Under the pieces are notes generated by a model, which did no database searches, was not told where the DNA came from, and saw nothing but the letters and a program-made list of their open reading frames with translations. The position numbers and the translations under genes are program-made. 46,958 nucleotides of DNA from an uncultured Pelagibacteraceae bacterium (GTDB lineage Bacteria; Pseudomonadota; Alphaproteobacteria; Pelagibacterales; Pelagibacteraceae). This document shows, in pieces, positions 7,911 to 20,677 of this stretch. Where the stretch lies: NCBI GenBank assembly GCA_902603925.1, contig CACKWQ010000006.1, positions 1-46,958 of the forward strand, given 5' to 3'. Positions within the stretch are counted from its first letter, which is position 1; every line of letters begins with the position of its first letter.

Positions 7911-7987
7911 GGCGGGGTAGCTCAGTTGGTTAGAGCGCGGGACTCATAAGCCCGAGGTCAGTGGTTCGATCCCACTTCCCGCTACCA
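7911..7987 (+). tRNA. tRNA-Met (CAT), elongator type
   Basis: A 77-nt cloverleaf with the 3' CCA encoded. The acceptor stem GGCGGGG pairs with TCCCGCT (G1-U72 and G7-U66 wobble), the D-arm is GCTC/GAGC, the anticodon loop is CTCATAA with anticodon CAT at 7944-7946, and the T-arm AGTGG/CCACT encloses TTCGATC. The acceptor and D-arm match the alphaproteobacterial elongator tRNA-Met rather than the initiator, which would have an unpaired 1-72 and a different D-arm. Position 31-39 of the anticodon stem is A opposite G, a non-Watson-Crick pair below four G/C pairs. A lysidine-modified tRNA-Ile(CAT) is the alternative but fits less well. Confidence 0.93.
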
Positions 7988-7993
7988 GATACT

Positions 7994-9376
7994 TCATTTT
8001 GTCAGTATCAATTCTAATCTATTTAATTTTAAATGTTCAATAATTTGACCCTCAACATAGCAATTTTTTTCATTTAAATCGTGTATGCATATTTCCCAAA
8101 TAGGCCCATTATAACCTTCGGATTTTGAGTAATTCATTAAGTTTAGATTATTTTTTTTAGAAATATGCAAAATATAATTATCAACTGCACTTTTCCATGC
8201 TTCTTCGTATAATAAATTTTTTTTAATTTTTATATTGTAATAAAAGTTTTTTGATTTGTTAATTAATTTTAAACCTTTGCTAAATTCAGGTTTATAAATA
8301 CTTCTACTTTTATAAGTTTGTTTAAAGGTTTCCTCAGTTATAAAGTTTCCAATAGTTAAAATTACCAATAGACAAATAATAATTTTTTTTTGAAAAGATT
8401 TTAGATCAAAGATAATATGGCTTAATATAATAATAATTGGAATTAGCACAAAAATTATATATCGCGCTAATATTATTGGATCAAATAAGTACCCATAAAC
8501 TAGTGGCAAAGCGTAAGAATAAACCATTAGAATTAGAAAAAAAATAATATAATCTTTTTTATTTTTTTTGGAAAAAAAAATTATCAAAAGATAAATTAAA
8601 ATTAAAAGATGCAAAACCCCAACTAGCCTTGAGCCAAAAAATTTAGAACTATAAAAATTTGTAAAAAATTTTAGTTCAGGTTGTTTTATCCATGTTGGTA
8701 CGCCCAATGAGTTTAGTGCATCAAGATAATAGTACATTATAAAAAATAAACTTATAATTAGTAGAATTATGTATAATTTTTTAAAAATTCTTTTTTTTTT
8801 TAAAAGTAGAAAAAGATAACTAACAAAGGATACAATAACAATAAATGAAAAAGGGTGCAAAAGAATAGAAACAAATGAAATAAAAAAAAATAATATCAAA
8901 TAATTATTTTTATTATTTTTTAAATATTTAAAAAAATATAAAATACTTGTACAATTAAAAAAAAATAGAGTTGAGTAAACTCTCATTTCTTGTGAATGTG
9001 AAATCAAAAAAATATTGAAACTTATTAGAAAAGTTACTAGAATATATGAGTTGTTGTTTTCTAAGGTTCTTGACAGAAACATTAAAGAAAAAATTGAAGC
9101 AATTGAAAAAAAAACTGATATATATCTGAATATTTCGTCCGAGTATCCAAATAATTTAAAATAAATTCTTGTTAGGTAATTAAATAAATAAGGTGTCTGT
9201 TCTAAGCTCCTATGATTTTTAAAGCTTTCATTTATTGAGTATTCAGGATTTGATATCCAAAAAGTTGCTATTTCATCTATCCATAAATCATCGAAATTAA
9301 CATTATAAACCCTAAAAAAAATTCCAGCTAGAATTATTAAAAATAAAATATAAACTGATTTTATTGTTGTATTCAT
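7994..9376 (-). CDS. membrane glycosyltransferase, GT39/ArnT-like (PMT_2 family)
   Basis: 460 residues with about 10-11 hydrophobic segments. The N-terminal periplasmic loop carries NFDDLWIDEIATFW. The acidic DE in this loop is the catalytic feature of GT-C enzymes that use polyprenyl-phosphate sugars (PMT/ArnT family knowledge). The C-terminal 80 residues are soluble. Such enzymes transfer a sugar from a lipid carrier on the periplasmic face to lipid A, glycan or protein. The gene lies 22 nt downstream of rfbD on the same strand, so it is likely the last gene of the rhamnose operon. Donor and acceptor cannot be read from the sequence. Confidence 0.8.
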   Translation of the reverse strand: MNTTIKSVYILFLIILAGIFFRVYNVNFDDLWIDEIATFWISNPEYSINESFKNHRSLEQTPYLFNYLTRIYFKLFGYSDEIFRYISVFFSIASIFSLMFLSRTLENNNSYILVTFLISFNIFLISHSQEMRVYSTLFFFNCTSILYFFKYLKNNKNNYLILFFFISFVSILLHPFSFIVIVSFVSYLFLLLKKKRIFKKLYIILLIISLFFIMYYYLDALNSLGVPTWIKQPELKFFTNFYSSKFFGSRLVGVLHLLILIYLLIIFFSKKNKKDYIIFFLILMVYSYALPLVYGYLFDPIILARYIIFVLIPIIIILSHIIFDLKSFQKKIIICLLVILTIGNFITEETFKQTYKSRSIYKPEFSKGLKLINKSKNFYYNIKIKKNLLYEEAWKSAVDNYILHISKKNNLNLMNYSKSEGYNGPIWEICIHDLNEKNCYVEGQIIEHLKLNRLELILTK

Positions 9377-9398
9377 TATTGCAATATTTGCATTATAA

Positions 9399-10103
9399 CT
9401 ACTTTGATAACAATTTCTTTAATTTGTTTACGTTAAAGGTTTGATTAAGAGGAAGTTTATTTTTATTATATTTTACTTTTTTAACGTTTTTATTAAATTT
9501 TTTTGCAAACTGATAAACACTTTTTGCTGGTCCACCTACATTAATTATTCCTTTTTGATTTATAATTTTAGGTAATATTTCCACCAAATCTTCGTGATAC
9601 ATGAAATTTGTTCTTAAGTTTGTAAAGGCTTTTTTATAAATAAATGGTTTTTCTGTCATTGTAATTCTTAAAATTAGAGAATTTTTGTACATTTGAACTG
9701 ATGCCTCGCCTCCAAGTTTTGATAGACCATAATTATTAAAGGGTTTGACTGGATCTTCCTCTTTATAGTTACCTTTTTTGCCCTCATAAACATACCCAGT
9801 AGAAAAATAAACTAGCTTGATATTTAATTTTTTACAAATTTTTGTAATGTTTGCAGTTCCAATGATATTTAAATCTATACTTTTAGAAATATTAGTTTCA
9901 TGAATTTCCATTGGCCTAGATAAACCTGCTGTATGTAAAACAATTCTTGGTCTTTCTTTTTTAAAACAATTTTCAATTGATTTAAGATTTAAAATGTTTA
10001 GCTGTTTTTTATTTTTGAAAATTAAATTGAGTTTTTTGTTTTTTTTTCTTAATGTATTCGCAAATCTCCCAGTACCACCAGTTACAATAATTTTACTATT
10101 CAT
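9399..10103 (-). CDS. rfbD: dTDP-4-dehydrorhamnose reductase-like (RmlD) NAD(P)-dependent sugar reductase
   Basis: 234 residues, somewhat shorter than typical RmlD (about 290). It is an extended SDR fold: N-terminal VTGGTGRFA dinucleotide site, HTAGLSRPM, YFSTGYVYEG, and the YGLSKLGGE catalytic Tyr-xxx-Lys. It fits RmlD_sub_bind and would catalyse the last step, reducing dTDP-4-dehydro-6-deoxy-L-mannose to dTDP-L-rhamnose. The start codon overlaps the rfbC stop by 4 nt (ATGA), and it follows rfbB, rfbA and rfbC in order. The shortened C-terminal region and non-canonical glycine motif leave a small chance that it makes another 6-deoxyhexose (for example 6-deoxytalose). Confidence 0.8.
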   Translation of the reverse strand: MNSKIIVTGGTGRFANTLRKKNKKLNLIFKNKKQLNILNLKSIENCFKKERPRIVLHTAGLSRPMEIHETNISKSIDLNIIGTANITKICKKLNIKLVYFSTGYVYEGKKGNYKEEDPVKPFNNYGLSKLGGEASVQMYKNSLILRITMTEKPFIYKKAFTNLRTNFMYHEDLVEILPKIINQKGIINVGGPAKSVYQFAKKFNKNVKKVKYNKNKLPLNQTFNVNKLKKLLSK

Positions 10104-10627
10104 TTAATGTAATTTTTTTTATATTCTTCGAAACTCAAATTTTTTTTATCTTTATCAGATAATATAATTTTATTAGATGGCCACTTAATTTTTAAAGTTG
10201 AGTCGTCATATTTAATACCTATCTCATCATTTTTACTTCTATATTTTGTACAACTATAAATTACAAAATTTTCTTTATCTAAACTTAAAAAACCATGAGC
10301 AAAACCTGGTGGTATAAATATAGATTTTGAATTTTTCTCACTTATTACTGTGGTAAAATATTTTCCAAATGTTTTAGATTTTTTTCTTAAATCAACAGCA
10401 ACATCAAAAATTTTTCCTTTTAGAACAGTCACAAACTTTCCTTGCATCTTATTTTTTTGTATATGTAAACCTCTAACTACATTTTTCTTAGAGAATGACA
10501 TTACTAAAAATGGAAATCTTTTTTGTATTATATTTTCTCTATAGAGTTCTTTAAAATATCCTCTTCTATCAATAAATTTTTTATTTTTAACAATAAAAAG
10601 TCCATCTATTTTATCTTTGTTTGTCAT
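10100..10627 (-). CDS. rfbC: dTDP-4-dehydrorhamnose 3,5-epimerase
   Basis: 175 residues, normal for RmlC. RmlC cupin features are present: DRRGYFKELYREN near the N terminus, VVRGLHIQ with the catalytic His, KGKIFDVAVDLRKKSKTFGK, and IPPGFAHGFLSL. It epimerises dTDP-4-keto-6-deoxyglucose at C3 and C5. The gene overlaps rfbA upstream and rfbD downstream by 4 nt each, so translation is coupled through the operon. Confidence 0.93.
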   Translation of the reverse strand: MTNKDKIDGLFIVKNKKFIDRRGYFKELYRENIIQKRFPFLVMSFSKKNVVRGLHIQKNKMQGKFVTVLKGKIFDVAVDLRKKSKTFGKYFTTVISEKNSKSIFIPPGFAHGFLSLDKENFVIYSCTKYRSKNDEIGIKYDDSTLKIKWPSNKIILSDKDKKNLSFEEYKKNYIK

Positions 10628-11493
10628 TTGGAAATAAGTTGTTTAAGATAATTTGAGTACTCACAATTTCCATAAAATTTAATAGCATCGTATAAGTTTT
10701 TTTTATTAATCCATTTATTTAAAAATGCTATCTCTTCCAAGCATGCTATTTTAAAGCCTTGTCTATTTTCAATTACGGAAACAAAATTACTTGTTTTATA
10801 AAAATCTTTAATTGAACCAGTATCTAACCAAGCACCACCCCTTCCAATATAATCTGCCTTTAAAGAGCCTTTTTTTTTGTATTTATTAAGTAAATCAGTG
10901 ATCTCCAACTCACCTCTTTTAGACGGTCTTAATTCTTTTGCATATTTTATAACTTTATTATCAAAGAAATATAAACCAGTAATTGCTAAATCAGATACAA
11001 ATTTCTTTGGCTTTTCTTTAATAAGTCTTATTTTATTATTTTTTACTTTTGCTACTCCATATTTTTCAGGCGACTTAACCCTGTGCAAAAATACTTTCGC
11101 ACCTCTCTTTAACTTAACACATTCTTGGAGTTTTTTTGATAAGTATTGCCCGTAAAAAAAATTATCACCTAAAATAAGCGAAACATTATTTTTTCCTATA
11201 AATTTTTCACCTAATATGAATGCGTCAGGCAATCCTCTAGGTTTATCCTGTTCAACATATGTAATTTTAATACCAAGATTTTTTCCATTTGGAATGACAC
11301 TTTTATATTGATTTAATTGTCCTTTGTTAACTACAATTAGAATATCTTTAATCTTTGCTAGCATCAAAATTGAAAGTGGATAAAAAATTAAAGGTTTATC
11401 GTATATTGGAAGTAATTGTTTATTAACTGCTTTTGTTAAAGGACTCATTCTAGTTCCTTTACCCCCAGATAAAATAATTCCTTTTTTGATCAT
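10624..11493 (-). CDS. rfbA: glucose-1-phosphate thymidylyltransferase
   Basis: 289 residues, the usual RmlA length. The N-terminal nucleotidyltransferase motif is GIILSGGKGTRMSPLTKAVNKQLLPIYDKP. ILGDNFFYG (metal-binding Asp), EKPKKFVSDLAITGLYFFD, RGELEITDLLN and GRGGAWLDTGS follow as in RmlA. It makes dTDP-glucose from dTTP and glucose-1-phosphate, the first committed step of dTDP-rhamnose synthesis. Four-nt overlaps join it to rfbB upstream and rfbC downstream. The glycine loop reads SGGKGTR where RmlA commonly has AGGSGTR; this is conservative. Confidence 0.95.
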   Translation of the reverse strand: MIKKGIILSGGKGTRMSPLTKAVNKQLLPIYDKPLIFYPLSILMLAKIKDILIVVNKGQLNQYKSVIPNGKNLGIKITYVEQDKPRGLPDAFILGEKFIGKNNVSLILGDNFFYGQYLSKKLQECVKLKRGAKVFLHRVKSPEKYGVAKVKNNKIRLIKEKPKKFVSDLAITGLYFFDNKVIKYAKELRPSKRGELEITDLLNKYKKKGSLKADYIGRGGAWLDTGSIKDFYKTSNFVSVIENRQGFKIACLEEIAFLNKWINKKNLYDAIKFYGNCEYSNYLKQLISK

Positions 11494-12512
11494 CTTTTTA
11501 ATCCTATCCTATTTATTATATCTTTTTTATTTATAGATGAATAAAAATTTTGATTTTTTAAATACCATAAAAATGTTTTATCGATACCATCTTTGAAAGA
11601 ATATTTAGGTCTCCACTTTAAACTCCTTCTTATTTTGCTGCTATCAATAGCATATCTTAAATCATGTCCAGGCCTGTCTTTTATAAATTTAATTTTTACT
11701 TTTCTCCCAATTTTAATATATTTTTTTGAAACTTTAATTAAATGTTTAGCAACTGAAATATTGTCTAAATTATAGTTTGATCCAATATTATAAAAGTTTC
11801 CAATTTTTCCTTTTTTAAAAACTTTTATAAGTGCATCGCAATGATCATCTACATGTATCCATTCTCTTGAATTTTTTCCTTTACCATAAATTGGAAGGAC
11901 ATTATTCGATATAATATTATAAATTAGTTTCGGTATTAGTTTTTCTGGATGTTGTCTTGGGCCGTAATTATTAGAGCAATTTGTAACAATAGCCGGGATA
12001 TTAAATGTTCTTACATATGAATATACTAAGTGATCGGATGAAGCTTTAGAAGCAGCGTATGGTGAACTTGGTATATAAGTATCAATTTCTTTTGACCTCC
12101 CTTTTAGTATATCTCCATAAACTTCATCAGTAGAAATATGAATTAATCTCACGTTTTTATTTTTTTTTGAATATTTTCTGAAATTTTCTAAAAGATTAAA
12201 TGTACCAAGAATATTAGTGTTAATAAAATTTTCTGGACTGTCTATAGATCTATCAACATGAGTTTCAGCTGCTAGATTAAATACACAAGTTGGTTTAAAC
12301 TTATTAAGCAATCTCTCAACTTTATTTTTGTCGCCAATATCACATTTAACGAATTTATAGTTTTTTTTATTTGGTAGTTTTTTTAAATTAAAAAAATTTG
12401 ATGCATAAGTTATTTTATCTAAATTAACCACATAATAGTTTCTTTTTAGAAGCATATTTATAAGATTACTCCCAATGAAACCAAGGCCACCCGTAACTAT
12501 AATTTTACGCAT
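11490..12512 (-). CDS. rfbB: dTDP-glucose 4,6-dehydratase
   Basis: 340 residues from the ATG at 12512. The frame also has an ATG at 12533, but the family N terminus (MRKIIVTGGLGFIGSN) aligns with the inner start, and a promoter -10 at 12541-12546 would make the outer start leaderless. The extended SDR has NAD motif TGGLGFIG, AETHVDRSID, HISTDEVYGD and catalytic YAASKASSDHLV. It converts dTDP-glucose to dTDP-4-keto-6-deoxyglucose. It is the first gene of the minus-strand rfbB-A-C-D operon and overlaps rfbA by 4 nt. It is divergent from a GT2 gene across a short shared promoter region. Confidence 0.95.
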   Translation of the reverse strand: MRKIIVTGGLGFIGSNLINMLLKRNYYVVNLDKITYASNFFNLKKLPNKKNYKFVKCDIGDKNKVERLLNKFKPTCVFNLAAETHVDRSIDSPENFINTNILGTFNLLENFRKYSKKNKNVRLIHISTDEVYGDILKGRSKEIDTYIPSSPYAASKASSDHLVYSYVRTFNIPAIVTNCSNNYGPRQHPEKLIPKLIYNIISNNVLPIYGKGKNSREWIHVDDHCDALIKVFKKGKIGNFYNIGSNYNLDNISVAKHLIKVSKKYIKIGRKVKIKFIKDRPGHDLRYAIDSSKIRRSLKWRPKYSFKDGIDKTFLWYLKNQNFYSSINKKDIINRIGLKR

Positions 12513-12519
12513 TGTTTTT

Positions 12520-12548
12520 TTTACAATAATCATGAGATTTAGTATACT
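12520..12548 (+). promoter_or_regulatory. sigma70-type promoter for GT2 gene, with palindromic -10 that may also serve rfbB
   Basis: On the plus strand, TTTACA (12520-12525) and TATACT (12543-12548) are separated by 17 nt; the predicted start is a few bases before the GT2 ATG at 12560. The -10 lies in the palindrome AGTATACT (12541-12548), so the same bases offer TATACT to the minus strand. That would place a start near 12534, about 20 nt before the rfbB start at 12512. The minus-strand -35 (about 12564-12569) is weak. This is motif matching only. Confidence 0.5.
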
Positions 12549-12559
12549 TATTTATCCTC

Positions 12560-13420
12560 ATGGAATTAAAAATTGACAAAATTACATTCATAATCGTTTG
12601 TTTTAAAAGTGAAAAAGTTATCTATGATTGTTTAAATTCACTTCCTATTAACTCAAAAAAAATAATTGTTGAAAATTCGAACAACATAAAATTAAAAAAA
12701 AATTTAGAATTAAAATATGACAATATTGAGGTTATTTTAAACAATAATCAAGGTATGGGGTCATCAAATAATATTGGTATAGCAAAGGCAATAACAGATT
12801 ATGTTTATGTCTTAAACCCTGATACAAAATTTCAAAAAGATACATTAGACAATTTGGTTTTAGGAGCTAAATCGATAAATGATTTTGCTATAATATCTCC
12901 TCTAAATAGTAATCCTAAATATCCAAATTATAAAATTTTAAAACAACAAATTAATGAAGACGAAAATATAATTTCAGTTGATAGGATTGATGGATTTTCA
13001 ATGCTTATAAATATAAAAAAGTTTAAAAATAAAAAATTATTTGATGAAAATATATTTTTATATCTTGAAAATGATGACTTATGTATGAGCGCAAAAAAGG
13101 CAGGTCACGAGATATTTATTGTTAAAAATTCATTTATTGATCATATTGGCTCATCTTCATCAAATTTTAATAATAATAATGAATTTGACTATCTTAGAAA
13201 CTGGCATTGGATGTGGTCAAAATTTTATTTTAATAAGAAACATCATGGTTATTCTAATGCAATAATAAAAACTTTTTTGAATTTTACTTCAGCTACAATA
13301 AAATATCTTTTTTATTCGTTGATACTTAATAATCACAAAAGTAAAATATATAAAATGAGAGTTTGTGGATTATTTTCCTCAATGATGGGAAAGGAGTCAA
13401 ATTTTAGACTAAAGGATTAG
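12560..13420 (+). CDS. glycosyltransferase family 2, rhamnosyltransferase (WbbL)-like
   Basis: 286 residues with a GT-A domain: TFIIVCFKSEKVIYDCL, NNNQGMGSSNNIGIA, a LNPDT acidic site, and IDGFSMLINI...LFDENIFLYLENDDLCMSAKKAG followed by HIGSSSS. This is the same WbbL-like block as the GT2 at 6367-7248, but the sequence is clearly different, so it is a paralogous family member rather than a recent copy. The gene is divergent from rfbB and convergent with apt (4-nt stop overlap). Its likely role is transfer of rhamnose or a related sugar to a lipid-linked glycan on the cytoplasmic face (inference from the subfamily and the adjacent rfb operon). Confidence 0.83.
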   Translation: MELKIDKITFIIVCFKSEKVIYDCLNSLPINSKKIIVENSNNIKLKKNLELKYDNIEVILNNNQGMGSSNNIGIAKAITDYVYVLNPDTKFQKDTLDNLVLGAKSINDFAIISPLNSNPKYPNYKILKQQINEDENIISVDRIDGFSMLINIKKFKNKKLFDENIFLYLENDDLCMSAKKAGHEIFIVKNSFIDHIGSSSSNFNNNNEFDYLRNWHWMWSKFYFNKKHHGYSNAIIKTFLNFTSATIKYLFYSLILNNHKSKIYKMRVCGLFSSMMGKESNFRLKD

Positions 13421-13944
13421 TGACCAGGGAATTCAATTAGATTTTTAACTTTAAAACCACTTTTTTCTAAACCTTTGCATCCACCTAAGTCAAATAAGTT
13501 AATAACAAAAATAAAACCTGAAACTATACCTCCTGACATTTTAATTAGTTTTGCAGATGCTTCCGCTGTTCCCCCGGTCGCAATAAGATCATCAATTATT
13601 AAAACTTTATCATTTGTTTCTATAGAATCTTTATGCATTTCAATTGTTGCCTTTCCATACTCTAATTCAAAATCAATGGAATAGGTATCTGCTGGTAATT
13701 TATTTTTTTTTCTTAACATGATAAAGGGTTTATTTAGTATATATGAAGCTGCGGAAGCAAAAACAAATCCTCTTGATTCTACGGCTGCAATCTTATCCAC
13801 TTCAAACTCTTTAGATAAAGTTACTATTTGATCTATGCTGTATGAAAACGCCTTTTCGTTTTTAATTAGTGTTGTTATATCTCTAAAAAGTATTCCTTTT
13901 TTTGGATAGTTTGGAATTGACCTAATATAATCTTTTAAATCCAT
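13417..13944 (-). CDS. apt: adenine phosphoribosyltransferase
   Basis: 175 residues, normal for APRT. The PRPP-binding loop VLIIDDLIATGGTAEA is intact, and GILFRDITTLI plus VESRGFVFASA near the N terminus are specific to APRT. It converts adenine and PRPP to AMP in the cytoplasm. It sits back-to-back (40 bp) with mtnP, whose product is adenine, so the neighbours form a functional pair: MTA cleavage followed by adenine salvage. The stop is shared with the convergent GT2 gene. Confidence 0.96.
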   Translation of the reverse strand: MDLKDYIRSIPNYPKKGILFRDITTLIKNEKAFSYSIDQIVTLSKEFEVDKIAAVESRGFVFASAASYILNKPFIMLRKKNKLPADTYSIDFELEYGKATIEMHKDSIETNDKVLIIDDLIATGGTAEASAKLIKMSGGIVSGFIFVINLFDLGGCKGLEKSGFKVKNLIEFPGH

Positions 13945-13984
13945 AAAATTTTAAGTTATAAATAATTAAATCATTTTAAATAAT

Positions 13985-14854
13985 ATGACAAATAAATTAG
14001 CTATTATAGGTGGTAGTGGGCTTTATGATGTGGAGGAATTCACTGATAGAGAATTAATTGATTGTAGTACACCGTGGGGAAAACCATCAGATAAAATACT
14101 TAAAACTAGTTTTAATAATAAGGAAGTTTATTTTCTTCCAAGGCATGGAAGGGGACATTTTATATCACCATCAAACATCAATTTTAGAGCCAATATTGAT
14201 TCTCTTAAGCAATTAGGTATAACAGATATAGTTTCAATTTCAGCGGTAGGCTCGTTAAAAGAGGATTTATTCCCAGGCAAATTTGTTATTATTGACCAAT
14301 TTATTGATAGGACTTTTGCAAGAAAAAAAACTTTTTTCGAGGATGAAATAGTTGCTCATGTTTCTATGGCGCATCCCACATCAAATGGCTTAATGAATGC
14401 ATGTGAAGAAGCCATCAAAGAGGCAAGCATTGAATATCAAAGAGATGGAACTTATGTGGTTATGGAGGGTCCTCAGTTCTCAACACTAGCCGAATCTAAT
14501 TTATATAGATCATGGAAAGCAGATGTAATTGGAATGACTAATATGCCTGAGGCTAAGTTAGCAAGAGAAGCAGAAATTAGATATGCATCAGTATCGATGG
14601 TAACCGACTATGACTGTTGGCATCCAGCACATGAGAATGTTGATGTTAAAAAAGTTGTTGAAGTCCTTTTAGGAAATGCAGTTAAAGCAAAAAATATGAT
14701 AAAGAACCTTATAGTAAACTTTGAAAAACATATTGATCCAAAAGATCCGACTAATAATTGTTTAGATGTGGCAATTATTACAGCACCTGAAAAAAGGACA
14801 CCAAAAACCAAAGAAAAATTAAAAACAATAGCTGGGAGAGTTCTGAATAAATGA
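13985..14854 (+). CDS. mtnP: S-methyl-5'-thioadenosine phosphorylase
   Basis: 289 residues, PNP/MTAP phosphorylase family. GGSGLYDVEEF (phosphate loop), FLPRHGRGH, DQFIDRT, VMEGPQFSTLAES and GMTNMPEAKLAREAEI are MTAP-type; the last motif distinguishes MTAP from inosine/guanosine PNPs. It cleaves MTA with phosphate to adenine and 5-methylthioribose-1-phosphate. It is the first gene of an operon whose next members start at 4-nt ATGA overlaps. MTA is a by-product of aminopropyl transfer by the last gene of this operon. Confidence 0.95.
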   Translation: MTNKLAIIGGSGLYDVEEFTDRELIDCSTPWGKPSDKILKTSFNNKEVYFLPRHGRGHFISPSNINFRANIDSLKQLGITDIVSISAVGSLKEDLFPGKFVIIDQFIDRTFARKKTFFEDEIVAHVSMAHPTSNGLMNACEEAIKEASIEYQRDGTYVVMEGPQFSTLAESNLYRSWKADVIGMTNMPEAKLAREAEIRYASVSMVTDYDCWHPAHENVDVKKVVEVLLGNAVKAKNMIKNLIVNFEKHIDPKDPTNNCLDVAIITAPEKRTPKTKEKLKTIAGRVLNK

Positions 14855-15306
14855 AAAAAAATTATGTGCTGAAAGGTAGTTGTGCCTGTAGAAATGTAAA
14901 TTATAAAGTTGAAGGCAAACCATTGTTCACACAAGCTTGCCATTGTAAAAATTGTAAGTTATCAACAGGATCATCTTTTGTAATTCATACAATGATTATG
15001 GAAGAGGATTTTAAAATAAGTGGTGACGTTGCTTCAATAAATTTACCAACTGGGAGTGGAAAAGGATACCATGCATACTTTTGTATTATTTGTGGAGTTT
15101 ATGTTTTTTGTCGATACGGTATTTCAAAAGGCAGAATTGCTTTAAGAACTAAAACTTTAGAAGAGCCCATTGAACCACAAGCACATATATTTGTAAAAGA
15201 TAAGGACCCATGGATCGAGATAAGCAATAAATCAATCTGTCATGATAAAATGTACGATAGAGAGAGAACATGGTCAGAGGAAAGCTTAAAAAGAATTAAA
15301 AAATGA
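14851..15306 (+). CDS. GFA/CENP-V family zinc protein (Gfa-like)
   Basis: 151 residues of the glutathione-dependent formaldehyde-activating (GFA) fold. Zinc cysteines are visible: C11 and C13 (GSCACRNVNY), C30/C32/C35 (ACHCKNC) and C78/C81 (CIICG). Known members bind two Zn ions and some react with S-hydroxymethyl-glutathione; for most the substrate is unknown. The start overlaps mtnP (ATGA) and its stop overlaps mtnA (ATGA), so it sits in the middle of the MTA salvage operon. A role in handling a thiol-linked aldehyde produced downstream is a speculative reading of that position. Confidence 0.85.
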   Translation: MKKNYVLKGSCACRNVNYKVEGKPLFTQACHCKNCKLSTGSSFVIHTMIMEEDFKISGDVASINLPTGSGKGYHAYFCIICGVYVFCRYGISKGRIALRTKTLEEPIEPQAHIFVKDKDPWIEISNKSICHDKMYDRERTWSEESLKRIKK

Positions 15307-16373
15307 AAATAGATGGAAATGATTATCGTACTATTTGGTTTGATAATAATATTGTAAAAATAATTGATCAAACCAAACTACCACATCAACTTATTATAAA
15401 AGATCTTAAAACTTTTAATGATGCAGTTAACGCAATTAAATTAATGGAGGTAAGAGGCGCTCCTTTAATTGGGGCAACTGCTGCATATGGTATAGTTTTA
15501 GCGATTATTGAAAATAATGATCAATCTTTTCTAAAAATAGCTAGTGATAAATTAATTGCTTCTAGGCCGACAGCAATAAATCTTAAATGGTCAGTAGATC
15601 GTATGATGAAAAAATTATCTAGAGTTAATAGCAATGAAATTTTTAATATAGCATTGAATGAAGCAAAAAAAATTTGCGAAGAAGATGTTCAATTTTGTAA
15701 AAACATAGGACTAAATGGATTAAAAATAATAGAGGCAATTTATAAGAAAAAAAAAAGCACTGTAAATGTTTTGACACATTGTAATGCTGGATGGCTAGCA
15801 ACCATAAACTGGGGCACCGCCACTTCTCCGATTTATCACGCAAATAAAAAAGGAATACCAATTCATATTTGGGTTGATGAAACAAGACCAAGAAACCAGG
15901 GTGCAAATTTAACTTCATTTGAATTAAACGAGGAGAAAATTCCTAATACAATAATTGCAGATAATACTGGAGGAATTTTGATGCAAAGAGGTGAAATTGA
16001 TATTTGTATTGTTGGAACTGATAGAACATTGGCAAACGGTGATGTTTGTAACAAAATCGGCACTTACCTCAAAGCTCTTGCTGCATACGATAATAATGTT
16101 CCCTTTTATGTTGCGTTGCCCAGTTCAACAATAGATTGGAATACAAAAAATTCGAGAGATATTCCAATTGAGGAAAGAAATTCAAATGAGTTGTCACACA
16201 TTGATGGTTTAGATGACGAAGGAAATATAAAAAAAATACAAATTTATCCAAAAAAAAGCAAAGCAAAGAACATAGCTTTTGATATAACACCCGCTAAATA
16301 CGTTACAGGCTTAATTACTGAAAAAGGAATTTGTGAAGCATCTAGAGAGGGATTAAATAATTTATTTAAATGA
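15303..16373 (+). CDS. mtnA: S-methyl-5-thioribose-1-phosphate isomerase
   Basis: 356 residues, eIF2B-like isomerase family of normal length. VRGAPLIGATAAYG near residue 52 is the family signature. LTHCNAGWLAT carries the catalytic Cys, RPRNQGANLTSFEL and VGTDRTLANGDVCNKIGTY carry the catalytic Asp, and VALPSSTIDW follows. It isomerises 5-methylthioribose-1-P to 5-methylthioribulose-1-P. A Trp stands after NAG where most homologues have Ala. It is linked to both neighbours by 4-nt overlaps. Confidence 0.95.
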   Translation: MKIDGNDYRTIWFDNNIVKIIDQTKLPHQLIIKDLKTFNDAVNAIKLMEVRGAPLIGATAAYGIVLAIIENNDQSFLKIASDKLIASRPTAINLKWSVDRMMKKLSRVNSNEIFNIALNEAKKICEEDVQFCKNIGLNGLKIIEAIYKKKKSTVNVLTHCNAGWLATINWGTATSPIYHANKKGIPIHIWVDETRPRNQGANLTSFELNEEKIPNTIIADNTGGILMQRGEIDICIVGTDRTLANGDVCNKIGTYLKALAAYDNNVPFYVALPSSTIDWNTKNSRDIPIEERNSNELSHIDGLDDEGNIKKIQIYPKKSKAKNIAFDITPAKYVTGLITEKGICEASREGLNNLFK

Positions 16374-16693
16374 ACCCATTAATTTTTTCTTTAGTTTCTC
16401 TAGTTTTAGTAGCCATATCGGCAAATTTTTTAAATTTAATAAAGGAAAGCAAAACTTTATTATATTTGTCAACTATTCCATGTGTATATTTGGTTATCTA
16501 TGGTTTTTACTTAATATTCGGACCAGTGGATTTATACGAAGACGGCTCTACTAATTTTTTTAACAAAAATCCAAATGAAAAAGAATTACCAATTGTATTC
16601 ATAATTTTAAAATTTTATGAGTATATTTTACTATTAGTAGGATTGGTTTTTGGGTATGTGTTTTCAAAGAAATTAAAAAATGACAGAAGCTGA
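16370..16693 (+). CDS. small three-helix membrane protein, unknown function
   Basis: 107 residues with three hydrophobic stretches (about 3-22, 29-50 and 77-100). A polar, acidic loop (about 51-74, containing GPVDLYEDGSTNFFNKN) lies between helices two and three. No family is recognised. It overlaps mtnA by 4 nt (ATGA) and the aldolase by 14 nt, so it is firmly embedded in the MTA/polyamine operon. Membrane location might suggest transport or regulation, but there is no sequence evidence for either. Confidence 0.7.
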   Translation: MNPLIFSLVSLVLVAISANFLNLIKESKTLLYLSTIPCVYLVIYGFYLIFGPVDLYEDGSTNFFNKNPNEKELPIVFIILKFYEYILLLVGLVFGYVFSKKLKNDRS

Positions 16694-17309
16694 ACATATA
16701 ATTAAATATGCAAAAATGATGAATAGCAAAAATCTATCAGCTCTTAGATCTGGAAACATATCTATGAGATACAGTGATGGTTTTCTTATAACACCATCAG
16801 GTATCAAATATTCTGCTTTAAAAAATGAAGATATAGTTTTCGTATCCTTGGATGGAAAATATGACGAAAATAAATTAAAACCCTCTTCTGAGTGGAGATT
16901 TCATAAAGATATTTATTTAAATAAAAAGGAGGCTAATGCTATTGTGCATGCCCACTCGACTCATGCAACTGCTGTTTCATCACACCGAAAATCAATTCCA
17001 GCATTTCATTATATGGTAGCTCTAGCAGGTGGTAATGATATAAAGTGTGCAGATTATGCAACTTTTGGCACCGAGGAATTATCAAAAAATATTATTAAAT
17101 CATTAGAAAATCGTAAGGCCTGTTTAATGTCTAATCATGGTCAAGTTGCTTTTGAAACTACATTAGAAAAAGCATTCGAATTAGCTGAAGAGGTAGAAAA
17201 TATTTGTCATCAATATATAAATGCTTTAAAAATGGGAAATCCTGAGATTCTTTCATTTGAAGAAATGAAAAAAATTTTGGAGAAGGTCAAAAATTATAAA
17301 AAGGATTGA
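16680..17309 (+). CDS. class II aldolase/adducin family protein, candidate 5-methylthioribulose-1-phosphate aldolase (Ald2-like)
   Basis: 209 residues, fuculose-phosphate aldolase family. RSGNISMRYSDGFLITPSG forms the phosphate site. SSEWRFH carries the catalytic Glu; HAHSTHATAVS supplies two zinc His and SNHGQVAF the third. All catalytic positions are intact. The family also includes MtnB (methylthioribulose-1-P dehydratase), so name assignment rests on context: it lies directly after mtnA, and no mtnC/mtnD is seen. This favours the aldolase route to DHAP and 2-(methylthio)acetaldehyde described for DHAP-shunt bacteria. A dehydratase (MtnB) role is the main alternative. Confidence 0.8.
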   Translation: MTEAEHIIKYAKMMNSKNLSALRSGNISMRYSDGFLITPSGIKYSALKNEDIVFVSLDGKYDENKLKPSSEWRFHKDIYLNKKEANAIVHAHSTHATAVSSHRKSIPAFHYMVALAGGNDIKCADYATFGTEELSKNIIKSLENRKACLMSNHGQVAFETTLEKAFELAEEVENICHQYINALKMGNPEILSFEEMKKILEKVKNYKKD

Positions 17310-17310
17310 T

Positions 17311-18351
17311 GTGACTAAAGTTGGAGAACACATAACACTTGATTTTATCGGAGTTAAAAAAGATTATTCACAAAAATTTTATGAAAAAGTTATTTATAAA
17401 ATTGCAAAAGTTGCAAAGGTAGAAATTTTAGGAATAAACAGTCATAAATTCGAACCGCAGGGTTTTACAACAGTGGCGTTATTAGCAGAAAGTCACATGA
17501 GTTTTCATACATTTCCTGAGAAAGGAATAATAAGTTTTGATTTTTTTACTTGTGGCAAAGTAAACCCAAGAATTGCTTTAGATGTTTTGAAAAAAGAAAT
17601 TAAATCAAAAAGAGTTGCAATTAATAGTTTCGATAGAAGTACCATTAGCCATTATGATGACATTTATAGCTCACCCGGTCTAAGAAAATTTTATATTGTC
17701 AAAGATGTATTAGAAAATTTCACATCTAAAGTTGGTCAACACGTAGAAATACTAAATCTAGAACAGTTTGGTAAATCACTATTTATTGACAATGAGCTGC
17801 AAGTTGCTGAAAAAGATGAACATCTTTATAGTTCAACTTTTGTAAAATCAGGTCTAAACCTAAATAAAGATAGAGATAAGGTTGCGATTATTGGCGGAGG
17901 GGATGGTGGAATTGCAAGAGAGTGTATTTCAAAAAATTTTAATTATATAGACTGGTTTGAACTTGATCCACAAGTAGTTAAAGTTTGTGAAAAATACTTA
18001 GCTAAAATAGGTGAAAAAGCGACTAAAAAAAATTCAGTAAAATGCATATGGGGAGATGCATTTGAAAGCATAAAATCTATTGAAAGTAATAGATACGATA
18101 AAATATTTGTAGATCTTAACGACGATCAATATTGTATTGACTTAGCTGCTAAGAATATGAAATCTCTAAAAAGAATTCTAAAACCAAGTGGAACAATTAC
18201 TACTCAAGTCGGAAGTCAAGATAAAAAACCAAAGCAGGTTAAAAATTGGATAAGTGTGTTAAACAAAAACTTTGGTAATGCTACCCTTGATAGAGTTTAC
18301 ATACCAAGTTTTGATTGTAATTGGAATTTCGCATCGTCAATTAACAATTAA
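17311..18351 (+). CDS. S-adenosylmethionine decarboxylase / aminopropyltransferase fusion (SpeD-SpeE)
   Basis: 346 residues from a GTG start 1 nt after the aldolase stop. Residues 1 to about 115 are a bacterial SpeD: KVGEHITLDFIGV, EPQGFTTVALLAESHMSFHTFPE with the Glu-Ser autocleavage site (Ser becomes pyruvoyl), and DFFTCGKVNPR. Residues about 120-346 are a spermidine synthase domain: SLFIDNELQVAEKDEHLY, AIIGGGDGGIARE (dcSAM site) and FELDPQVVKVCEKYL. The usual DSxDPxGP becomes VDLNDDQYC, keeping D-x-x-D, and the usual YHE becomes YSS. It would make decarboxylated SAM and use it for aminopropyl transfer, releasing MTA. The acceptor (putrescine or another diamine) is uncertain. Confidence 0.88.
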   Translation: MTKVGEHITLDFIGVKKDYSQKFYEKVIYKIAKVAKVEILGINSHKFEPQGFTTVALLAESHMSFHTFPEKGIISFDFFTCGKVNPRIALDVLKKEIKSKRVAINSFDRSTISHYDDIYSSPGLRKFYIVKDVLENFTSKVGQHVEILNLEQFGKSLFIDNELQVAEKDEHLYSSTFVKSGLNLNKDRDKVAIIGGGDGGIARECISKNFNYIDWFELDPQVVKVCEKYLAKIGEKATKKNSVKCIWGDAFESIKSIESNRYDKIFVDLNDDQYCIDLAAKNMKSLKRILKPSGTITTQVGSQDKKPKQVKNWISVLNKNFGNATLDRVYIPSFDCNWNFASSINN

Positions 18352-18410
18352 TTTATCTTTTTAAATCTTTATTTTTGTGGAATAATATTAATTATATTTT
18401 TGGAGGAAAC

Positions 18411-19268
18411 ATGAACATGATCAAAAAATTTAGCATAGGTTTGTTGTTTAGTTTGTTTTTAACAATATCCGCTAATGCTGATAAAATAAGAATAGGAACA
18501 GAAGGTGCATATCCACCTTGGAATTCAAAAGATGCCTCAGGTAAGTTAATTGGTTTTGAAGTAGAATTAGCTTGGGCACTTTGTAGATACATTGGACAAC
18601 AATGTGAAATCGTTGAACAAGATTGGGACGGAATGATACCAGCTCTTCAAATGAGAAAGTTTGATGCAATAATGGCCGGCATGTCAATTACTGATGAAAG
18701 AAAAAAAGTGATTACATTTTCTCAAGGTTATGCAGATGAAGTTGCGTCACTAGCCGTAATGAAAGGTTCTGACCTAGAGGGAATGGACACACCCGAGGGA
18801 ATTAATCTTTCTTTAGGTGGTGGAAGTGTGAACAAAGCTTTAAAAACCCTTACAGGAGCTTTGGCTGGAAAAACTGTTTGTACTCAAACAGGAACAATTC
18901 ATCAAAACTTTTTAGAGTCAGGTGATGTTGGTAAAGTAAATGTAAGAACTTATAAAACTCAAGATGATGTCAACCTTGATTTAGCTTCTGGTAGATGCGA
19001 TGTAGCTTTAGCGGCTGCTGTAGCGTTTACAGATTATGCTGAAAAATCTGGAAAACCTGTAATTCTTGTTGGACCAACTTTTTCAGGAGGTGCTTTTGGA
19101 AATGGAGTGGGCGTTGGATTGAGACAAGCTTCACAACTAGGTGGTACCCTTGGCGAAAGAGATGCTCAATTGTTAAATAAATTTAATAAAGCAATCGATC
19201 AAGCAAGAAAAGATGGCGTAATTAGTAGACTAGCCATTAAACATTTTGGCTTTGACGCATCTATGTAA
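18411..19268 (+). CDS. polar amino acid ABC transporter substrate-binding protein
   Basis: 285 residues starting at the ATG at 18411, chosen because a strong GGAGGA precedes it by a few bases and a signal peptide begins there; the in-frame ATG at 18375 is not needed. The signal peptide covers residues 1 to about 22, ending ANA-DKIRIG. The mature part is a SBP_bac_3 periplasmic protein: GTEGAYPPWN, GFEVELAWALCRYIG, WDGMIPALQMRKFDAIMAGMSITDERK. It resembles the lysine/arginine/ornithine/octopine group. An extra insert around residues 125-150 (GINLSLGGGSVNKAL) is notable. It is followed by a hairpin and then by two permeases. Confidence 0.92.
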   Translation: MNMIKKFSIGLLFSLFLTISANADKIRIGTEGAYPPWNSKDASGKLIGFEVELAWALCRYIGQQCEIVEQDWDGMIPALQMRKFDAIMAGMSITDERKKVITFSQGYADEVASLAVMKGSDLEGMDTPEGINLSLGGGSVNKALKTLTGALAGKTVCTQTGTIHQNFLESGDVGKVNVRTYKTQDDVNLDLASGRCDVALAAAVAFTDYAEKSGKPVILVGPTFSGGAFGNGVGVGLRQASQLGGTLGERDAQLLNKFNKAIDQARKDGVISRLAIKHFGFDASM

Positions 19269-19283
19269 TATTATATTTGAATT

Positions 19284-19309
19284 GGCGGTTAATTAATTAA
19301 CCGCCTTTT
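19284..19309 (+). terminator. hairpin between substrate-binding protein and permease genes
   Basis: A perfect 22-nt palindrome (arms GGCGGTTAATT and AATTAACCGCC, 19284-19305) is followed by TTTT. It lies 15 nt after the binding-protein stop and 8 nt before the permease start at 19314. The short T-run suggests partial termination or protection of the upstream mRNA end, giving more binding protein than permease. It could also be an mRNA-stabilising hairpin only. Confidence 0.65.
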
Positions 19310-19313
19310 CGAT

Positions 19314-20006
19314 ATGGAACTTCTTTTATTTGGCAAAACAGGCTGGGGTGATGAGTTACTAATCGCTACATTAATGACCTTAGCAGTATCTATTGCTGCT
19401 ATGTTTATTGGTTTTATTTTTGCATTAATATTTACTCCTTTAAAATTATCAAAAAATAAATTTTTAAATATTATTGCAAATTTTTATACAACTGTAATTA
19501 GGGGTGTGCCTGAACTACTTGTAATTTATCTTTTCTTTTTTGGGGGAAGTAGTGCAATAATGTTTGTAGCTTCTGTTTTTGGATATAATGATTATATAGA
19601 AATAAATGCGTTTATAACTGGTGCTTTTTCAATAGGTATTATTTCAGGCGCATACTCTACTGAAGTTTTTAGAGGGGCAATTCAGTCTATAGATAAAGGA
19701 CAATTTGAAGCGTCTAATGTATTAGGATTTAATAAAGTAACAAGATTTTACAAAATTATACTTCCTCAAATGTTAAGATTGTCTATTCCAAATTTAAGCA
19801 ATGTTTGGCAAATTACTCTTAAGGATACGTCTCTTATCTCAGTAACTGGCTTAGTTGAAATAATGAGACAGTCATATATAGCAGCAGGATCTACAAGAGA
19901 TCCTTTGTTATTTTATACTGTTGCAGCAGTTTTATATTTGATCTTAACATTTTTAAGTATGAAAATTATCAATAAAATGGAAGTTAAATACAATAAGGGA
20001 TACTGA
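19314..20006 (+). CDS. amino acid ABC transporter permease (HisQ/ArtQ-like)
   Basis: 230 residues, BPD_transp_1 (HisQM subfamily) with about five membrane helices. The amphipathic N-terminal part is followed by TVIRGVPELLVIYLFFFGG (family RGTPLLVQ-type motif) and the cytoplasmic EAA loop FEASNVLGFNKVTRFYKIILPQMLRLSIPNL, where the ATPase docks. It pairs with the next gene, whose start overlaps its stop by 1 nt. The pair forms the inner-membrane channel for the binding protein encoded upstream. Confidence 0.92.
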   Translation: MELLLFGKTGWGDELLIATLMTLAVSIAAMFIGFIFALIFTPLKLSKNKFLNIIANFYTTVIRGVPELLVIYLFFFGGSSAIMFVASVFGYNDYIEINAFITGAFSIGIISGAYSTEVFRGAIQSIDKGQFEASNVLGFNKVTRFYKIILPQMLRLSIPNLSNVWQITLKDTSLISVTGLVEIMRQSYIAAGSTRDPLLFYTVAAVLYLILTFLSMKIINKMEVKYNKGY

Positions 20007-20677
20007 TGGATATAGAATTAATTTTAAATAGTTTTCCAAAATTATTATCAGCAAGTGTAACAACACTAAAATTACTCTCTGTATCAATGATTATAGGATT
20101 GTTTATAGGTTTATTTTTTGCAATCATGAGAATAAAAAATAATATATTTTTAGGCAAGCTTGCATATGCATATTCATATATTTTTAGGGGTACACCCCTA
20201 TTAGTTCAAATATTCATAATCTACTACGGTTTTGGACAAGTAGAATATATTAGGGAGAGTTTTCTTTGGGTAATCTTAAAAGAACCATATTGGTGTGCAA
20301 TAATAGCTTTTGCTCTTAACACAGGAGCTTATACTTCTGAAATTCTAAGGTCAGCATTTCAAACCATTAAACCAGGCTTTATAGAGGCAGGTAAAAGTTT
20401 GGGCGTGCCCAATAAAATTATTTTTTATAAAATACAGATTCCTATAGCTATTAGACAATCATTACCAGCATATGGAAATGAAATTATTTTAATGCTTAAA
20501 GGAACTTCACTGGCGAGCACTGTTACCTTGATGGACTTGACTGGTGTTGCTAAATTTATTATTTCGACAACTTTTAAACCAATTGAGGTATTTATAATTG
20601 CAGGAAGTATATATTTATTTATAACGTTTATAATTCACAATTTGATTAAAGCTTTGGAAAAAAAATATAGTTTTTAA
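20006..20677 (+). CDS. amino acid ABC transporter permease (HisM/ArtM-like)
   Basis: 223 residues, BPD_transp_1 family with about five helices. YIFRGTPLLVQIFIIYYG and an EAA loop (IEAGKSLGVPNKIIFYKIQIPIAIRQSLPAYGNE) are intact. This is the second permease of the ABC importer. An ATP-binding subunit gene (HisP/ArtP) is expected next but the following gene is on the opposite strand and unrelated, so the ATPase must be encoded elsewhere or shared. The TAA stop is shared with the convergent gene. Confidence 0.92.
   Translation: MDIELILNSFPKLLSASVTTLKLLSVSMIIGLFIGLFFAIMRIKNNIFLGKLAYAYSYIFRGTPLLVQIFIIYYGFGQVEYIRESFLWVILKEPYWCAIIAFALNTGAYTSEILRSAFQTIKPGFIEAGKSLGVPNKIIFYKIQIPIAIRQSLPAYGNEIILMLKGTSLASTVTLMDLTGVAKFIISTTFKPIEVFIIAGSIYLFITFIIHNLIKALEKKYSF

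Follow-up and report, generated by a model that had tools for sequence, protein, structure and literature searches.

We analysed a 46,958-nucleotide stretch of DNA from an uncultured Pelagibacteraceae bacterium (contig CACKWQ010000006.1; hereafter the window), in which a fused S-adenosylmethionine decarboxylase-aminopropyltransferase gene (speD-speE; protein SpeD-SpeE or SpeDE) shares an operon with mtnP, mtnA and a class II aldolase gene. We consider it probable that this operon couples spermidine synthesis to the disposal of 5'-methylthioadenosine (MTA) by the dihydroxyacetone phosphate (DHAP) shunt. The case is built on gene content and order, protein families, conservation at catalytic positions, distribution among genomes, mutual exclusivity and exchange. 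The SAR11 locus represents a known shunt in a marine form tied to polyamine synthesis; its new part is the set of three exchangeable MTA sinks at a fixed place beside SpeD-SpeE, namely the aldolase, an mtnA-linked fusion of an aldolase with a short-chain dehydrogenase, and a nucleosidase-like protein.

Three exchangeable sinks beside SpeD-SpeE

Among 197 genomes of the order Pelagibacterales (149 of them at least 90% complete), SpeD-SpeE was found in 128, mtnA in 119, the aldolase in 98, the fusion in 22 and the nucleosidase-like protein in 14; the aldolase count includes partial copies (G036 and G141, both at contig starts, and G167) and, in G194, a C-terminal piece. Exactly one sink was present in 127 of the 128 SpeD-SpeE genomes (98 with the aldolase, 19 with the fusion and 10 with the nucleosidase-like protein), and none carried two. 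In the sole genome without a sink (G109), the SpeD-SpeE gene begins 143 bases into its contig. The aldolase and mtnA occurred together in 95 genomes, the aldolase alone in 3, mtnA alone in 24 and neither in 75. The fusion replaces the aldolase in 22 of the 24 mtnA-only genomes; all 22 fusion genomes carry mtnA, and fusion and aldolase were found together in 0 of the 197. The two mtnA-only genomes without the fusion are G144, whose contig appears to end before the place in question, and G168, whose mtnA is broken. On contig C23 of G168, mtnA lies in two pieces on opposite strands and with stops, perhaps as a result of decay or misassembly, and this genome gave no match to the aldolase, the fusion or SpeD-SpeE.

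The arrangement is positionally fixed. We mapped 120 loci, 117 of them with SpeD-SpeE, comprising 80 from named relatives, all of which belonged to the Pelagibacteraceae/Pelagibacterales (that is, SAR11), and 40 from other genomes of the order; the former (L032-L111) were found by aldolase similarity, so that the aldolase is present in them by construction. A sink gene lies upstream of SpeD-SpeE in 117/117, and the full frame of an apt gene pointing away, a sink and SpeD-SpeE is present in 103, the remaining 14 being without the left-hand genes in the stretch examined. The 103 full-frame loci include 90 of the mtnP-mtnA-aldolase type, 8 of the mtnP-mtnA-fusion type and 5 of the nucleosidase-like type, a split that does not represent frequencies because loci were chosen partly by sink. 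The initial annotation had read the window's genes as an operon in the order mtnP-GFA-mtnA-(three-transmembrane protein, 3-TM)-aldolase-SpeD/SpeE with a divergent apt, packed by ATGA overlaps or near-overlaps and uniting the MTA source with its sinks. Coordinates and family matches (Table 1) confirm that layout, and families and gene order bear out the union of source and sinks. The junctions consist of three ATGA overlaps (mtnP/GFA, GFA/mtnA and mtnA/3-TM), one 14-base overlap (3-TM/aldolase) and one 1-base gap (aldolase/SpeDE), with 40 bases between the divergent apt and mtnP. The assembly had also been called unusual, a view overturned by the comparison of synteny across SAR11: the core operon order is conserved across Pelagibacteraceae and is the commonest SAR11 layout in our sample.

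Stretches from 13 of the 24 mtnA-only genomes show where the fusion sits. In 10 of these, a 677-residue protein is encoded between mtnA and SpeD-SpeE, usually on the opposite strand, while two genomes of family f2 without SpeD-SpeE (L123 and L130) encode a 674-residue relative directly after mtnA, in the order apt-mtnP-mtnA-fusion on one strand; the stretch from G144 stops short. In SpeD-SpeE genomes without mtnA (five fetched loci), a nucleosidase-like protein of 174-178 residues is encoded between apt and SpeD-SpeE. This state keeps SpeDE and apt and drops mtnA and the aldolase, the nucleosidase-like protein standing instead of mtnP-mtnA-aldolase. The protein scored under the curated cut-offs of TIGR01704 (47.8 bits, cut-off 73.8) and of its best model, NF004168 'nucleosidase' (95.8 bits, cut-off 129). 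It aligns to MTA/S-adenosylhomocysteine nucleosidases, with its VDMEA and SDNAD motifs aligned to a solved one; these nucleosidase motifs presumably have a catalytic role.

One sink has repeatedly been exchanged for another, the flanks being conserved. In a tree built from 36 SpeD-SpeE proteins, 11 changes are needed to explain the three sink states, which are somewhat clustered (13/200 shuffles as low). Scored separately on this tree, the aldolase label needs 11 changes, 5 of them forced by well-supported branches (212/500 shuffles as low), and the fusion label needs 7 and is likewise somewhat clustered (37/500). An mtnA tree built by a quick method gave 10 changes for the aldolase/fusion label, 6 of them forced (315/500). 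Both trees trace the flanking genes and not the species, and with loci chosen partly for the rarer sinks they indicate repeated exchange and not its rate. Three pairs of loci that differ in their sink show clean swaps. Between L148 (aldolase) and L128 (fusion), identity is 91% over the 12.3 kb leading up to the swap and 84.5% over the next 3.2 kb; L112 and L135 are 92.8% identical in mtnA and 93.3% over the 3.4 kb from SpeD-SpeE onward, and the corresponding values for L118 and L142 are 89.5% and 88.8%.

The proposed route and the class II aldolase

For SAR11 we infer the substrates, the products and the fate of the aldehyde as follows. SpeD-SpeE would make spermidine, releasing MTA; MtnP would convert MTA and phosphate to adenine and methylthioribose-1-phosphate, Apt would return the adenine to AMP, and MtnA would yield methylthioribulose-1-phosphate. 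The class II protein, which we propose to be a methylthioribulose-1-phosphate (and 5-deoxyribulose-1-phosphate) aldolase, would cleave this product to DHAP, which would enter central metabolism, and (methylthio)acetaldehyde, which would be left for other enzymes to convert. In fusion lineages the predicted product is (methylthio)acetate, and in the nucleosidase-like state release of methylthioribose is predicted. If the sinks act in this way, strain type would set the sulfur compound reaching seawater, and that compound could be read from one gene. Parts of the route have precedent in the literature, represented here and below by excerpts of the cited papers: the fusions of two Pelagibacter strains make spermidine, spermine and thermospermine (PMC11107197), and MtnA and aldolase together give DHAP and (methylthio)acetaldehyde in R. 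palustris (PMC5893883) and E. coli (PMC10986504). Alternatively, the locus might serve polyamine breakdown, with SpeE running in reverse and consuming MTA while MtnP, MtnA and the aldolase trim the excess. The authors of PMC8437039 read culture data in this manner for one strain, the other being unclear. We regard this explanation as very improbable, given that a co-expressed MTA sink would work against the claimed reverse SpeE reaction in SAR11 by removing the substrate it needs, and that all three sinks are predicted to destroy MTA.

Coupling of spermidine synthesis to MTA disposal also has to be weighed against a second substrate, since 5'-deoxyadenosine from radical S-adenosylmethionine enzymes is probably acted on by the same enzymes. 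Conceivably, the shunt mainly clears 5'-deoxyadenosine to DHAP and acetaldehyde, MTA being secondary and the SpeD-SpeE link reflecting shared use of MtnP. Next after the FucA proteins, the closest solved aldolase is B. thuringiensis DrdA, which acts on 5-deoxyribulose-1-phosphate, and 5-methylthioribose was likewise converted to DHAP by the three enzymes from that organism (PMC6079011); the E. coli shunt accepts both substrates (PMC10986504), and seven genomes of the order have a fusion or nucleosidase-like sink without a SpeDE match. Nevertheless, the SAR11 sink adjoins the MTA-producing SpeD-SpeE, with one sink in 127/128 SpeDE genomes, and the nucleosidase-like state retains SpeDE and apt yet is without mtnA and the aldolase. 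On this evidence we think it unlikely that MTA is the secondary substrate.

Sequence comparison supports assignment of the window's class II protein to the FucA/DrdA/Ald2 kind and not to MtnB. It shares 49% identity with E. coli FucA and 43% with the aldolase (Ald2) of the E. coli S88 mtnK-mtnA cluster, and E71, H90, H92, Y111, H153 and Y206 are invariant in 23 SAR11 aldolases, E. coli FucA and S88 Ald2. Residues E71, Y111 and Y206 align to FucA E73, Y113 and Y209, which are positions mutated in solved FucA variants according to the entry titles; H90, H92 and H153 presumably bind the metal. A fold model (mean pLDDT, the predicted local distance difference test score, 82.2) had its best match in FucA (TM-score 0.83) and its next in DrdA (0.81-0.82), the DrdA entries 6btd and 6btg ranking 18-19 among the fold matches after FucA proteins; the fold search added little to the sequence evidence. 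In a tree of 51 aldolases, for which the bootstrap had not settled and in which the tested Ald2 enzymes of R. rubrum and R. palustris were not placed, the 21 SAR11 rows form one group (support 96/95), which mtnA-linked aldolases from two alphaproteobacterial genomes outside SAR11 join (97/88 and 98/84). More broadly, of 55 non-SAR11 aldolase matches in the Alphaproteobacteria, 28 came with loci, and 22 of these have mtnA, mtnP or apt nearby.

These data bear on two other identities for the protein. It could be an MtnB dehydratase that feeds ordinary methionine salvage, with mtnC and mtnD elsewhere in the genome: it belongs to the same superfamily, and the MtnB model matches it weakly, over the model's N-terminal half. 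That match reached 66.6 bits against a cut-off of 137.05, neither MtnB nor MtnD was found over cut-off in any of the 197 genomes, and the catalytic tyrosines of FucA are kept, making this identity extremely unlikely. The aldolase could instead act on some unrelated sugar phosphate, for example L-fuculose-1-phosphate, and lie in the operon incidentally, as the 49% identity to FucA might suggest; its best NCBIfam models are also L-fuculose-phosphate aldolases, with scores under cut-off. Since mtnA is present in 95 of the 98 aldolase genomes, and since a different type of aldolase occupies the same place elsewhere and itself has mtnA or mtnP nearby in 21 of the 31 class genomes checked, we find such an unrelated function quite improbable. 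The initial annotation had likewise favoured a DHAP-shunt aldolase over a dehydratase, and the MtnB score, the conserved catalytic residues and the mtnA-linked neighbours in the tree support it.

Other routes for MTA were sought across the order. MtnB was over cut-off in 0/197 genomes, with weaker matches in 153 that include the aldolase described here, and MtnD in 0/197, with one weak match; MtnK was over cut-off in 0/115, with 54 weak matches, and the RuBisCO-like protein (MtnW) had no match in any of the 115. For these 115 genomes, the RuBisCO-like result leads us to reject the MTA-isoprenoid shunt, and the MtnK result to reject entry by way of that kinase. The initial annotation had listed mtnK, mtnW, mtnX, mtnC and mtnD as absent; this stands for the operon, and in the samples of the order that were searched (197 genomes for mtnB and mtnD, 115 for mtnK and RuBisCO-like mtnW) nothing was over cut-off. 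Its further prediction, that a free methylthio-aldehyde is the sulfur exit product, is doubtful, because sister genomes carry the aldolase-dehydrogenase fusion, characterised relatives of which oxidise the aldehyde with NAD+ (PMC3870299), and because tested Ald2 systems yield methylthioethanol from the aldehyde (PMC5893883, PMC10986504). A second, more MtnB-like class II protein is encoded in two genomes that also carry the aldolase (G120:C2:29693-30253 and G046:C1:332583-333104; 90.7 and 88.3 bits against the same cut-off of 137.05).

Among described systems, the MtnP variant of the DHAP shunt in R. rubrum and R. palustris (PMC5893883) shares mtnP, mtnA and a class II aldolase with the SAR11 locus, all three lying in one operon in R. 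rubrum. The marine SAR11 locus differs in its SpeD-SpeE fusion, divergent apt and exchangeable sink, and SAR11 is without a RuBisCO-like protein for the MTA-isoprenoid branch (0/115). Homologues of mtnP, mtnA and ald2 were reported in ~6.5% of KEGG bacteria, mostly terrestrial (PMC5893883). The MtnK variant of E. coli (PMC10986504; S88 locus) shares mtnA and Ald2 but uses a nucleosidase and a kinase. The DrdK-DrdI-DrdA system, presented as a means of 5-deoxyribose disposal (PMC6079011), shares an MtnA-like isomerase and a FucA-like aldolase but has a kinase entry. RhaEW (PMC3870299) has the domain make-up of the alternative SAR11 sink, the SAR11 fusion being of a different subfamily, and the Pelagibacter decarboxylase-aminopropyltransferase fusion is the same kind of fused enzyme as ours, its neighbouring MTA genes not being discussed in the excerpts (PMC11107197). 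PMC8437039 is indexed with mtnA and mtnP once each; its main text shows neither, and they may be named elsewhere in its pathway reconstruction. No open-licence PMC paper was found that reports on this locus or on a DHAP shunt in SAR11, that treats the fusion in MTA loci, or that pairs 'methylthioribulose' with 'bifunctional aldolase'. A 2020 survey of the DHAP shunt may already list SAR11.

Fusions across the Alphaproteobacteria and points against the proposal

The 677-residue fusion is a bifunctional aldolase/short-chain dehydrogenase of the RhaEW kind (NF006192, 896.4 bits, cut-off 639); the rhamnose-specific RhaD_aldol-ADH model TIGR02632 gave 443.4 bits, under its cut-off of 567.75. Aldolase_II and short-chain dehydrogenase domains lie on one chain, and both active sites are conserved in at least 97% of the aligned fusions (67 proteins, some genomes being represented twice). 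The positions conserved to this degree are E125, H139, H141 and H200 in addition to T436-G437, N510, S562, Y575 and K579, which we assume to have the usual roles of such active-site motifs. A sample of 190 alphaproteobacterial genomes, of which two are SAR11, had the fusion over cut-off in 32 and an aldolase match in 57. In 21 of 31 genomes checked, mtnA or mtnP lies within 8 kb of the fusion (31 of the 32 over-cut-off genomes were covered, G319 being without a locus). This is a lower bound, as three of the ten unlinked fusions are on contigs of only 9.2 to 12 kb; the ten also include copies beside genes without an evident tie to MTA.

This linkage leaves a rhamnose context for the fusion unsupported, rhamnose genes themselves not having been searched for. 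Characterised RhaEW forms DHAP and lactate, needs NAD+, has no reductase activity and is reported, in the excerpts of PMC3870299, as always lying in rhamnose loci; the mtnA-linked fusion subfamily does not fit the 'always' of that description. It is, in our view, an even call whether the NF006192 fusion represents an undescribed branch of the DHAP shunt in about one-sixth of the sampled alphaproteobacterial genomes. Such a branch would convert methylthioribulose-1-phosphate and NAD+ to DHAP and (methylthio)acetate with no release of aldehyde, and the SAR11 sinks would be alternative alleles of one locus, relatives exporting MTA sulfur as an acid, an aldehyde-derived product or methylthioribose. 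A function would thereby be proposed for a widespread enzyme whose current names are generic or refer to rhamnose. The aldolase and the fusion occur together in G226, G294, G317 and G373. In G226 they are ~15 kb apart, and the 34 kb fetched round them held no mtnA match.

Several observations weigh against the coupling of spermidine synthesis to an aldolase-based shunt, or limit its reach. Within the order, the tie to SpeD-SpeE is not strict, as 3 fusion genomes and 4 nucleosidase-like genomes had no SpeD-SpeE match; our confidence is slightly lowered because the tie is loose outside the main SAR11 family. No SpeD-SpeE match was found in 40 wider stretches from the class, where aldolase and fusion occur together in 4/190 genomes against ~9.6 expected (Fisher p 0.02, relatedness ignored), indicating that sink exclusivity outside SAR11 is only partial. 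The window's aldolase is nearer to E. coli FucA than to S88 Ald2, and in the aldolase tree S88 Ald2 pairs with FucA and not with SAR11, which makes it less safe to carry the function of the E. coli enzyme over by similarity. The fold model is poor round Y111 (block pLDDT 55-58, residues 101-120). The argument for the aldolase rests on genomic context and residues. Aldolase-type operons are without any fixed dedicated aldehyde-handling enzyme. We reject the Yang cycle via MtnB on the MtnB score and on the MtnB and MtnD counts (each 0/197 over cut-off), mtnC and mtnX not having been searched. Finally, the window's genome (843 kb in 39 contigs) is 63% complete, so that its absences have to be judged from relatives.

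Gene coordinates and neighbouring features

Table 1. Genes of the window's MTA locus and the transporter that follows it.
Feature	Coordinates	Strand	Evidence and remarks
apt, adenine phosphoribosyltransferase	13417..13944	-	TIGR01090 199.9 bits (cut-off 185.85); divergent from operon
mtnP, MTA phosphorylase	13985..14854	+	TIGR01694 301 bits (cut-off 274.85)
GFA-family protein, accessory, slot 1 (mtnP/mtnA)	14851..15306	+	PF04828 88.4 bits (cut-off 24.3)
mtnA, methylthioribose-1-phosphate isomerase	15303..16373	+	TIGR00512 412.7 bits (cut-off 279)
3-TM small protein, 107 residues, slot 2 (mtnA/aldolase)	16370..16693	+	three hydrophobic stretches by eye
Class II aldolase, Ald2-like (candidate)	16680..17309	+	Aldolase_II PF00596 176.9 bits (cut-off 22.2)
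speD-speE fusion, predicted MTA source	17311..18351	+	TIGR03330 and PF01564 on one open reading frame
Polar amino-acid ATP-binding cassette (ABC) transporter	18375..20677	+	binding protein PF00497/TIGR01096 and two open reading frames (230 and 223 residues) travelling with it

The seven genes of the locus were confirmed, and each matches its expected family except that for the 107-residue 3-TM protein, which had no family match in profile scans of the window's proteins. SpeD-SpeE scored 102.9 bits with TIGR03330 (cut-off 75.65) and 82.3 bits with PF01564 (22.9) as a single polypeptide, hence a fusion. The binding-protein match to TIGR01096 falls under its cut-off. Of 109 loci with enough sequence, 53 have the ABC transporter immediately 3' of SpeDE, and it may possibly supply precursor; in other loci, a nitrilase-like gene (family assigned by eye) takes its place 3' of SpeD-SpeE.

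The two slots vary in content. GFA occupies slot 1 in only 11 of the 117 mapped loci, and relatives of the 3-TM protein are present in 36, two of them with the fusion; hydrolases and others also occur in slot 2. We considered the GFA and 3-TM proteins as dedicated aldehyde handlers or exporters and, given this variation, claim no function for them. The commonest slot-1 gene (24 loci, e.g. L078:1416-1859) encodes a protein whose one scanned member matched Tautomerase_3. In L148, L128 and L114, the operon is interrupted by a cassette that carries a sulfatase gene among others and places ~9 kb between mtnA and the sink; these loci have a PhyH-family gene in slot 1, and either sink may follow the cassette. 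Scanned against Rfam at gathering scores, the window gave one tRNA alone and no riboswitch. The tRNA gene (7911-7984) adjoins glycan-type genes at 7994-12533, which include a PMT_2 match and a dTDP-4-dehydrorhamnose epimerase match.

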